A stretch of 64,000 nucleotides of DNA from assembly GCF_002975435.1 (NCBI RefSeq), contig NZ_PCPT01000001.1, positions 496,001-560,000 on the forward strand, written 5' to 3'. Positions 49,021-52,132 of this stretch are shown here, piece after piece. Under the pieces are notes generated by a model, which did not search any database, was not told the origin of the DNA, and saw only the letters and a program-made list of their open reading frames with translations. This stretch comes from Arthrobacter sp. MYb227. GTDB lineage: Bacteria > Actinomycetota > Actinomycetes > Actinomycetales > Micrococcaceae. The translations under genes and the position numbers were made by a program. Within the stretch, counting starts at the first letter, position 1. Every line of letters begins with the position of its first letter.

Positions 49021-49071
49021 AAGAGGGACCCCACTTATTTTCACGCTAGTGAAGTAGGTGGGGTCCCTCTT
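49021..49071. terminator. Terminator between katA and the sigma-fusion gene
   Basis: AAGAGGGACCCCAC (49021-49034) pairs with GTGGGGTCCCTCTT (49058-49071), followed by CTGCTATTTTT. It can work for both converging genes. Confidence 0.85.
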
Positions 49072-49130: not shown

Positions 49131-51205
49131 TTATTCGATGATGAAGTCTTTCGAAATTGCAGGCCCACCAAATCCAGAGATCTTTACGTGTATCGTCGTT
49201 GGTTCGATCGCTTCGAGATCGGTCTTCTTCACGTCGAAAGTGAACTTTCCATTCCCCAACTGTAAGCAATTAAACACCGCCGGAGTGGTAAGTGAACCGT
49301 CGGAACTGCACCACGCTCGGCTGCTCACCGTCACATCAGATGAACCCGGTCCGGATCTTTTTTCAAATTCCGCACGCAGCAAATTAATGAACCCAAATGA
49401 CGAAGTATCAATCGTGATGGTGCTTGAGGTATCGCCATGTTCGATATCGATCGGCGGAGTCGGCTCGGTGGTCGGATCCACAGTCGGATCAACAGTCGGC
49501 TCAGTCGGTTCCGTCGGATCAACAGTCGGCTCAGTCGGCTCAGTCGGATCAACAGTCGGCTCACAGTCGGCTCAGTCGGATCAACAGTCGGCTCAGTCGG
49601 TTCCACAGTCGGGTCCGTCGGCGTTACCGTAGGCACCGCCGAAGTCTCAGTACTTGGTGATGCCGGCGCACTAGAAGATTCTGATGGATTTACTGGAGAA
49701 GTTGGCTTGACGGTTTCCGAGGGTTGTCCCGAAACCGATGCTTCCGGCTTCTGAGCAGGATTCGAACCTACAGCTGGCGTTTCGGAGATTTGCGGTGCTT
49801 GCGATGGAACATGGTCATCCGTCGGGGCTGGTAGCGCTGGAATCCCAGAGTCCACGGGTTGTTGAGGTACCAATGAATTGATTCCCGCGGGAGGGATTTG
49901 AACTGGAGCTAGCCCCTTCGGAACTGTTGATACTCCAGAAGACTTTGAATCCTGAACGGTATCTGTGTCAGGCGGTAGCTCGGCTGTACCTAATGAGCTT
50001 GTTGCGGTGGGAGAACTCACTACAGCTTCGTCGAAAAATAGGGTGTCTTGATCTGTAATTCCCGGCATTGGTTGAGTACCAGGCACAGCAATTTCTTGTT
50101 TTGGTGCTACTAGGCCGTTGGTAATTTCTCCGTCGGCTTGTTTGGGCTTTGATTTATTTCCAAGTTCAGCGCCTCCGACCGCAGCAACTGCAACTACAGC
50201 AGCAAGCGCGACGCCCGTGACGGCAATGGCTAGAGCATTTGCACCGGCAAAAGCCCCAATTCCTCCAAATAGACTGCTACTGCCAACCCCCGCAAAGGTG
50301 GTTGTGGTTCCCGCCGTGGCACCTGTAGCAGGTGCGGTTCCAAGCGAAGTTCCGGTACCTGCATGCGTTGCCTTCCCCAGAGAAATACTCAGCGCTGCCC
50401 CAGAAGTAACGGCCGAAGGGATTCCTAAGGCTGTGATGCCGCCGAGGAATAGTGGGGCAATAATGCCACGCATCGAAGAACTTACGTCGTTGATCTGCAG
50501 AAGAATCGCAGTGCACTTATTGCAGTCGGCCAGATGCTCATCAACTTTTGCCTCGTTACGAGCGCTGAGTCCACCGCGAACATACGCCCCGAGCTGGCGT
50601 GAAAATGCTTGGCATTGATCCCCCGTTGAAACCTTTATGTGTCCTTGTAAGTATGCTTGGCGTAGGCCTTCACGAGCTCGGACGGCCAAAGCAGATACAC
50701 CGTTGGGTGAAAGGCCCAGCATTGGTGCTACTTCAGCTGGTTTTAGCCCATCGATTTCCGTATACCAGAGCACTGCTTGCCAGCGTTCGGGAAGTGAGCG
50801 GAAGGCTTCCCCCACAACCCCGGATTCAAATTGATTCATCACGGGGTCGGCATGTTCGGTACCGCGTTCAAAGACACTGAAGTCGTCGGTCAATGTCTGG
50901 CGTTTTTCGTGATTGTTATAGGCGAAAGCTAGGCGAGAAACGGTGGTACACAGATAAGCCCTGAAAAATGCTTCGGGACCATTATCGGTTTGTAAGATAG
51001 AAAAGACTTTTTCAAAGCCCGTGGCCACTAGATCTTCGGCCTCGGCAGGACTATTTGAATGTCGGTACGCAACCCTGAGCGCTACATCGTAGTGCCGTGC
51101 ATAGAGCATCTCTTGGGCATGCTGATCGCCCGCGCGTACCTGGCTAATTAGCTCGGAGTCGCTCGGTTCAAGGGATTCTGCACTGGGTTCCACAAGAATA
51201 CTCAT
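49131..51205 (-). CDS. Sigma factor fused to zinc-finger anti-sigma-like domain, membrane helix and Pro/Thr stalk; frame shifts in the repeat tract
   Basis: From the start at 51205 the protein has sigma region 2 (HYDVALRVAYRHSNSPAEAEDLVATGFEKVF) and region 4 (RSLPERWQAVLWYTEIDGL with SPNGVSALAVRAREGL), an ECF-type sigma core. Then comes an HxxxCxxC zinc motif (EHLADCNKC) as in zf-HC2 anti-sigma domains, a helix (ALAIAVTGVALAAVVAVAAV) and about 230 residues rich in Pro, Thr and Ser that end in EPTVDPT repeats. Near 49560 the frame is lost: the sigma frame runs into RLLIRLSRL-type text and stops at 49331. The matching frame (from about 49490) encodes a 100-residue C-terminal domain, ending SGFGGPAISKDFIIE at 49131. 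Loss of 10 bases from the repeat explains the break; the domain order implies one original protein. A membrane-bound, self-contained sigma sensor is inferred. Confidence 0.78.
49478..49609. repeat. Tandem Pro/Thr-coding repeat tract with frame change
   Basis: On the minus strand the tract consists of GAGCCGACT and GAGCCGACTGTTGATCCGACT units. At about 49560 one unit reads GAGCCGACTGT directly followed by GAGCCGACT; adding TGATCCGACT there would restore the frame. The short repeats are prone to slippage. Confidence 0.85.
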
Positions 51206-51385
51206 TTCACTGCAATGAAGGCACGTAATAGATGCCAGCATCCTTCAGATTATCGCATCGTGTGCAATCGCCCCGCTTGGCTTAAAAGATAAGAGCACCA
51301 GCTCAGCCTTTCATGACGCGAACTGAATGAATTAATTTCTCAAATATCCGCGTCATGATTTTGCCTTCGTGCACTCTCAATTGAC

Positions 51386-52132
51386 ATGAAGTTCTTCTCC
51401 CGTCCCAACCGCACCGCGCAAGACGCCTCGATGCTGCTTGAACAGTGGTGTGCCCTATCACAAGCCTCGGGGTGGATTCGAGAATCGGACTGGTTTTGCA
51501 ATGCGGCGCGTTCGGTAGCTGTAACGTTGTGCGCTGGCGATGAACCGAGCGTGGTGATTCGTTCACTCGCTTCCCGAAGAGCCGTTCAAGGAGTCGGAAT
51601 CTCCGAGTCACTGCGAGACATTCAGTCACTCTTTGGCGTGTATCCACATCCCAAGCGTGATGAATTGTTGGTTTCCTTTGCCGACGCTTGGGTAGAAGCC
51701 ACGGATTTGTTCAGCCATCGGCTTACCTGTGCGGATGCAACAACTGGACTTTCAAACCGCCAACATTTTGAGCGCCGAGTCTACGAGCTACGGGAGAATC
51801 CAATGACACGAAACGAACCATATTTGCTGGCTCTCTTTAAACATCTGCATGTCGACCTCGATGACATGAGCACCTTCATGATGGCAGCAGAGATCGGTCA
51901 GGAAGTTGCTCAGTCGGTTCCCGAGGCTGTTGCCACCTACCGAGGAAACCGCTTGGCGTTGTTGCTGCCGCGCGAGATGGCGGTTCGAAGTCGACTAACG
52001 CAGCTAGGCCGCTCGCTCGAAGATGTACTTGAGGATTACAAGTTACCGCGAGATAGCCTACGAATTGATCTTGAACCGTTGCCACAGGATGCCAAGGAAA
52101 TTCAACGGGTTCTGGGAAGCTTGTGGAGCTAA
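51386..52132 (+). CDS. Degenerate GGDEF-like protein
   Basis: The 248-residue protein has DATTGLSNRQHFERRVYEL at residues 117-135, the first helix-turn of GGDEF domains (D.LTGL.NRR.F). Where GGDEFALLL should be, it reads YRGNRLALLLP (residues 185-195), so the catalytic site is lost. The first 110 residues are a helical region without known family. It probably binds a ligand or partner and does not make cyclic di-GMP; this is inferred. It diverges from the sigma-fusion gene 180 bases away. The start at 51386 has no clear ribosome site. Confidence 0.72.
   Translation: MKFFSRPNRTAQDASMLLEQWCALSQASGWIRESDWFCNAARSVAVTLCAGDEPSVVIRSLASRRAVQGVGISESLRDIQSLFGVYPHPKRDELLVSFADAWVEATDLFSHRLTCADATTGLSNRQHFERRVYELRENPMTRNEPYLLALFKHLHVDLDDMSTFMMAAEIGQEVAQSVPEAVATYRGNRLALLLPREMAVRSRLTQLGRSLEDVLEDYKLPRDSLRIDLEPLPQDAKEIQRVLGSLWS

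Follow-up and report, generated by a model that had tools for sequence, protein, structure and literature searches.

A probable membrane-tethered ECF52/53-like sigma factor in Arthrobacter sp. MYb227 with a divergent GGDEF-like partner gene and a predicted promoter motif

Several actinobacterial ECF sigma factors are joined to their own anti-sigma part and to the membrane, and the accessible parts of the published accounts describe a few such designs. SCO4117 of Streptomyces coelicolor, an ECF52 factor, combines sigma regions 2 and 4 with a zf-HC2 domain, a membrane helix, a Pro-rich stalk and a C-terminal module; its gene adjoins atrA, and a putative promoter motif, CSGYN-17-SRHA, has been published for ECF52 (PMC5826349). 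It is the first characterised ECF52 member and, in a 2022 review, the best understood of ECF48, ECF52 and ECF53, with two differing promoter predictions. ECF53 and ECF48 are actinobacterial ECFs with a fused zinc-finger anti-sigma part and one to two helices, and IutY (ECF243) of Pseudomonas putida is an aerobactin-responsive factor of an iron-starvation system that is activated by regulated proteolysis (PMC8999054). In the literature searched, which includes the accessible text of PMC5826349, PMC8999054 and PMC10766802 and covers subscription journals thinly, no account was found of the regulon described below, of its promoter code or of the family to which the partner belongs.

Here we describe a locus of this kind in a window of 64,000 nucleotides, the whole stretch of Arthrobacter sp. 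MYb227 DNA that was analysed. The original prediction, made from the letters of the sequence, was a membrane-bound sigma factor with a built-in anti-sigma domain and an outer stalk, all encoded by one gene. The sigma-frame ORF runs on the minus strand from 51241 to 49331, and its ECF sigma regions 2 and 4 (residues 34–179) and ZAS zinc domain (C198...H224-x3-C228-x2-C231) occupy 50513..51205 on the minus strand, as located by Pfam, TIGR02937, invariant columns and AF2 helices. Sigma70_r2 (residues 34–93), Sigma70_r4_2 (131–179) and zf-HC2 (198–231) pass the Pfam cut-offs, and the ORF scores 63.6 bits against TIGR02937 (cut-off 42.9), which confirms the predicted ECF sigma core; the protein has sigma regions 2 and 4 only and is thus of the ECF (group IV) type. 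The predicted zinc domain is confirmed as well: the residues HLADCNKC follow the HxxxCxxC pattern and, with C198 as upstream zinc ligand, make a ZAS domain, and C198, H224, C228 and C231 are invariant across 50 aligned sequences including that of the window. An AF2 model reaching from the sigma part to the second hydrophobic segment (H2, below) has helices in the sigma and zinc part; its pLDDT is below 50 from residue 268 on, where it is uninformative for H2. Against the counterpart at locus L108 the sigma and zinc part differs mainly at silent sites (pN 0.12, pS 0.72), and as judged from sequence comparison it is constrained. A G+C-rich inverted repeat noticed by eye (49021..49071, no strand assigned) separates the sigma gene from a catalase gene and is likely a terminator common to the two.

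Fusion of the sigma part to the membrane part is the rule among the relatives. Of 59 related genomes 18 have a sigma match, as do 93 of the 295 genomes of the family, and the gathered set comprises 115 sigma genes from loci including that of the window, 98 of them closed. In 79 of the 98 closed genes (the window's counted) a single frame holds the zinc motif, H2 and 100 or more residues beyond, and the other 19 miss one or more of these features, are truncated or are short paralogues. The comparison of domain order that had been proposed as a check therefore speaks for the fused order; separate sigma and membrane genes in the homologues, which would have meant an artefact, were not borne out, and some short relatives have no helix or stalk. 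Rarity of the fusion was rejected on the same count. ECF sigmas with C-terminal membrane extensions had rightly been called known, as ECF52/53 and SCO4117 are examples, and the "unusually complete" sensor follows the ordinary plan of ECF52/53-type factors as given in the accessible text of the two sources (PMC5826349, PMC8999054); the all-in-one design is already known. Six loci (L154, L155, L161, L156, L159 and L121) have the zinc motif and no clear membrane helix or stalk, and may be soluble forms of this sigma. Outer modules vary: among 10 relatives scanned, DUF11 is above cut-off in three, two of which also have CARDB or NPCBM_assoc, and seven have no known outer module, and NPCBM is found in both of the presumed Streptomyces genes scanned. 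In a tree of the sigma genes (10 long-branch or short rows left out, rows L050–L107 thinned to every third) the window's gene falls on the side of the NPCBM-type genes against three ECFs of its own genome (97/93), within a backbone that is not resolved and that holds no ECF53 or ECF48 reference sequences. The partner labels on rows L211–L224 of this tree are provisional, that of L216 being wrong, and no statistics on these labels are used.

The membrane helix of the original prediction is confirmed in the form of the strongly hydrophobic H2 and needs amendment in that there are two hydrophobic segments, the second alone likely spanning. The conserved segment H1 (residues 248–266; 50408..50464, minus strand; hydropathy 1.89) was delimited by hydropathy, conservation, AF2 and charges. 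In the aligned relatives it is surrounded by the invariant residues D240, R246 and P251, and AF2 models a helix at 229–259 that covers part of it with confidence falling along its length; H1 is probably an anti-sigma helix or a peripheral, non-spanning one. H2 (residues 325–343; 50177..50233, minus strand; hydropathy 2.66) is likely the sole membrane-spanning helix, oriented N-in/C-out according to hydropathy and family charges. In the relatives, Lys and Arg against Asp and Glu number 64 to 17 before H2 and 39 to 200 after it, and the side before it is the more positive one in 76 of 86 family members, the less positive in three and equal in seven. Given this asymmetry, by the positive-inside rule the start of H2 would lie inside and the stalk outside the cell; the window protein, with charge 0 on either side, carries no topology signal of its own. 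Behind H2, the stalk in the sigma frame (49560..50176, minus strand) consists to 41% of Pro, Thr and Ser over 202 residues, so that the predicted Pro/Thr/Ser region holds. Taken together, the domains, their order and the charges around H2 support a membrane-bound sigma with a built-in ZAS anti-sigma domain and an outer stalk.

The claim of one gene is not confirmed in this assembly. The span 49131–51205 joins two frames, and no single frame reads through from the sigma part to the C-terminal end; a single open gene was rejected, as the frame shifts within a 9/30-bp tandem repeat that codes for (E/D)PT units (49471..49621, minus strand) and the C-terminal domain lies in a frame other than the sigma's (49131..49481, minus strand). 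Past the repeat, the sigma frame reads an Arg/Leu-rich tail until the stop at 49331. A structure model of the C-terminal domain, made from two sequences, is all-beta with 9 strands (pLDDT 80). Neither Pfam, above cut-off, nor NCBIfam yields a family for this piece, a fold search of the PDB with its model gave nothing at E ≤ 0.001, and by sequence the piece matches the adhesin 6xi3 weakly (E 0.0076). In the tails of the gathered homologues, a profile from the window and three congeners picked up nothing further that passed the inclusion threshold. Compared with L108 the domain has diverged (pN 0.55, pS 0.77), as expected of a changing sensor beside a constant output formed by the sigma and zinc part. 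As assembled, the MYb227 product would lack the sensor domain, leaving a sigma tethered without a sensor. A screen of the 115 genes for frame breaks, in which not all flagged cases are real and which missed the window's own break, flagged eight: L109, L040, L052, L114, L088, L104, L101 and L125. Breaks in or near the stalk occur in L109 (genome G006; twice) and in L088 (Demequina litorisediminis), and in G006 the sigma gene, in its stalk, and the partner gene are both broken. L040 has an in-frame stop; the first ORF of L052 ends in YTHLTLPT-like residues, which we take to be an adapter artefact, the truncation probably being an assembly fault.

Divergent from the sigma gene lies a partner gene (51386..52132, plus strand), whose 248-aa product belongs to an unnamed family and has a degenerate GGDEF-like C-terminal half. 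No Pfam family is above cut-off in the partner, with GGDEF (PF00990) at E 0.11 below it, and the GG[DE]EF motif is absent from the aligned members shown; a working diguanylate cyclase was rejected on these grounds. In 346 genomes of the phylum the partner profile gave four matches, namely the window's, one next to the sigma gene of G527, and a pair of larger proteins, of which the one inspected is a kinase whose matched end (E 4e-9) is a Pfam GGDEF domain. The partner thus resembles GGDEF proteins in its match to the kinase end and differs from them in lacking GG[DE]EF and in its N-terminal half, a conserved part of its own; it looks GGDEF-derived as far as these similarities go. Against L108 it gives pN 0.23 and pS 0.80. 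In its own genome (G000) no GGDEF domain exceeds the Pfam cut-off, so that the degenerate partner is without an obvious c-di-GMP synthase beside it.

A member of the partner family stands divergently upstream of 84 of the 115 sigma genes. Within the genus, it is present in four of 15 genomes, the four in which the sigma core is intact; in G012 a stop-bearing remnant of the sigma gene is left, without the partner. Among the 295 family genomes, 24 have the partner, every one of them also among the 93 with the sigma, and none of the 202 genomes without a sigma match has it (Fisher p 9e-14, kinship not corrected); since at most nine candidates per genome were scored in the family and at most seven in the phylum, absence is less sure than presence. 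Of the 30 partner matches, 26 lie divergently next to a sigma match, with at most 352 nt between the match ends, and four are not beside a sigma. The close relatives L037, L039 and L083 have the sigma without the partner, and the Streptomyces-like genomes of the phylum sample give no partner match. One family genome of 3.2 Mb (G159) holds nine sigma matches and five partner matches. The partner is probably a feedback or coupling protein.

The interval between the two genes carries a predicted promoter facing each of them: GCGTCAT-N17-CTCTTA towards the sigma gene (51290..51319, minus strand) and GCGTCAT-N17-CTCTCA towards the partner (51350..51379, plus strand), the ATG of the latter lying 6 nt past the -10 element. 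Their -35 elements are arranged as an inverted repeat. Among the partner–sigma intergenic regions counted (83 of the 84 pairs, L109 being excluded as its partner is broken), GCGTCAY-N17-STCTNA faces the partner in 59 and is absent in this strict form from 24; 100 dinucleotide shuffles gave none, a test of chance and not of choice, as the motif was derived from the same 83 regions. All 59 partner-facing motifs are followed, no more than 12 nt from the -10, by an RTG that opens the partner's frame, which suggests that the partner transcripts are leaderless. By group, the motif faces the partner in most Micrococcales pairs, Nocardiopsaceae keep the -35 half only, and it was not found upstream of five presumed Streptomyces members. 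The strict motif faces the sigma gene in three of the 83 regions, with near copies in Paeniglutamicibacter and Sinomonas, and stands upstream of two of the 31 partner-less sigma genes. In the genus, a match to the pattern lies beside the sigma remnant of G012, which has no partner, and further matches occur, for example L250, L251, G001, G009 and G014.

A scan of the 15 genus genomes also placed the pattern at one non-coding site in G000, G011, G006 and G013. In the window's own genome this site is outside the window, at L252:1500-1810 on contig C23 of G000, and the others are L246, L247 and L235. Over about 1.4 kb its flank shares 83–85% identity with the G000 flank; a flank of this kind is present in all 15 genomes, and the promoter is intact in the four with an intact sigma core and in none of the other 11; decayed remnants were recognised by eye in G004, G008 and G012. 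Downstream of the promoter follow hairpins that repeat loops of the CTTGGGGG type, the two tested having fold z of -5.0 and -3.4, and two Rfam matches are both far below the gathering scores; the locus is a putative structured RNA. AT-rich stretches were seen upstream at this locus. Similar-looking non-coding loci occur in another genus (L372 in G036, L376 in G085), and G085 keeps the ncRNA-type promoter with no sigma found at 1e-25, which counts against the promoter assignment. In L369, L370 and L371, of another genus, the stretch after the analogous promoter is C-rich (TCCCCCG) and not G-rich.

Elsewhere the motif leads to candidate targets. Across 50 sigma-holding genomes reached through other loci, the pattern has 123 matches against 13 for a reversed control; partner promoters account for 35 of the 123, leaving 88. 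The pattern scan of the 295 family genomes is dominated by one conserved match, presumably coding. Targets were read from 40 regions of our own choosing with 44 of the 123 matches, mostly in Demequina, each protein family being tested on one example. These 44 sites include BldC-like proteins at six (one example at 103 bits against the BldC cut-off of 77), LRV-type proteins at ten, NIT/HAMP/ATPase-type kinases at seven (that of L324 with a frame of just 214 aa), a small secreted protein at three, Tat-like secreted proteins, judged by eye, at three and a LuxR-type protein at one; 14 have no recognisable target, one weak EAL-like gene included. In Demequina, the motif precedes genes for BldC-like, NIT-type histidine-kinase, LRV and secreted proteins. 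At L334 (Actinotalea) the promoter is followed by a gene that matches the EAL domain weakly and below cut-off, which is a second hint of c-di-GMP-type proteins near this sigma. Of the original statement that signal and targets are unknown, the part on the signal stands, whereas the targets can now be predicted from the promoter motif.

The frame shift may stem from assembly error, decay or switching. That sequencing or assembly went wrong in the repeat and the true gene is intact has, in our judgement, a little under an even chance: in its favour are the low-complexity repeat in a 27-contig draft and the apparent break in L052, which resembles what we presume is adapter sequence, and against it is that G006, in two contigs, is likewise broken in the stalk. 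The S. clavuligerus orthologue has a stop in this region as well, which its authors put down to a possible sequence error (PMC5826349, accessible text). Decay of the locus, with the genus losing the sigma–partner pair and the frame shift marking an early stage on the way to a pseudogene, is a possibility to which we lend somewhat less credence. It would account for the absence of both genes from 10 of the 15 genus genomes, the sigma remnant in G012, the breaks in both genes of G006 and the ncRNA remnants in G004, G008 and G012, and it sits poorly with a sigma-zinc part and a partner that differ from L108 mainly at silent sites and with three intact promoters. It is very improbable that slippage of the stalk repeat acts as a switch, toggling the sensor domain while sigma, anti-sigma and anchor are kept. 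The stalk breaks in the window, in L088 and twice in G006, and the published S. clavuligerus stop, would suit it, but the cases are few among 98 closed genes (in a screen that missed the window's own) and come from single assemblies, in which errors would look identical.

Two further alternatives concern the sigma itself. GCGTCAY-N17-STCTNA might belong to another sigma, the present sigma and its partner being merely among the targets; we think this unlikely. The assignment is by position and co-loss only, 29 of the 31 partner-less sigma genes have no strict copy, and G085 has the promoter where no sigma was found; on the other side, the motif faces the partner in most Micrococcales pairs, and the only genus genomes that keep it intact at the ncRNA locus are the four whose sigma core is intact. 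More improbable still is that H1 and H2 both span the membrane, which would put stalk and C-terminal domain inside the cell. The hydropathy of H1 would allow it and one to two helices are mentioned in the accessible text of PMC8999054, but the excess of positive charge before H2 in 76 of 86 family members and the extracellular-type modules of some relatives are hard to reconcile with such a topology.

We therefore consider it fairly probable that the locus encodes an ECF52/53-like, membrane-tethered, autoregulated surface-sensing sigma with a predicted regulon. Anatomy, pairing, promoter conservation and co-loss in the genus come directly out of the computation. Like SCO4117, the window's product comes from Actinobacteria and has zinc finger, transmembrane helix and Pro-rich extension on one protein, the extension being cut by the frame shift in the assembly. 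It differs from ECF52 in that no carbohydrate-binding domain was found at its C-terminus by Pfam, NCBIfam or PDB fold, and in its motif, GCGTCAY-N17-STCTNA against the published putative CSGYN-17-SRHA. At L211, presumed to be Streptomyces, a sigma with NPCBM lies beside TetR and NDH2-type genes, in likeness to SCO4117 and atrA, and falls on the window's side of the tree root; SCO4119 is an NADH dehydrogenase. We have not filed the protein as ECF52 because the carbohydrate-binding domain was looked for and not found and because the tree does not separate ECF52 from ECF53. ECF53 and ECF48, by their published description, share the fused zinc-finger anti-sigma part and the helix. IutY likewise has its sigma fused to a membrane-bound anti-sigma part and differs in answering to the siderophore aerobactin.

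In the preferred reading of a tethered, autoregulated sigma, the ZAS domain behind region 4 would, with H1, keep the sigma inactive, H2 would be the anchor, and the flexible stalk would hold the fast-evolving beta domain outside the cell. By analogy with the systems described in the accessible text of PMC5826349 and PMC8999054, the zinc domain probably holds the sigma until a signal at the outer domain brings about its release, probably through regulated proteolysis, as proposed for ECF52 in print. The freed sigma, to which we assign the promoter, would then transcribe from GCGTCAY-N17-STCTNA its own gene, the leaderless partner gene and, in the genus, the ncRNA. More tentatively, the sigma and its dead-GGDEF partner on a leaderless mRNA might form a conserved two-gene module whose main output in Paeniglutamicibacter would be one multi-hairpin regulatory RNA, its hairpins sharing CUUGGGGG loops, and which in Demequina would drive BldC-like and surface genes, as a developmental switch that senses the surface and predates sporulation of the Streptomyces type. 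With a partner that is conserved and a promoter code whose targets recur, the targets of such a sigma become directly testable, and the findings suggest that in actinobacteria outside Streptomyces a BldC-type regulator and a GGDEF-derived protein are linked to surface sensing.
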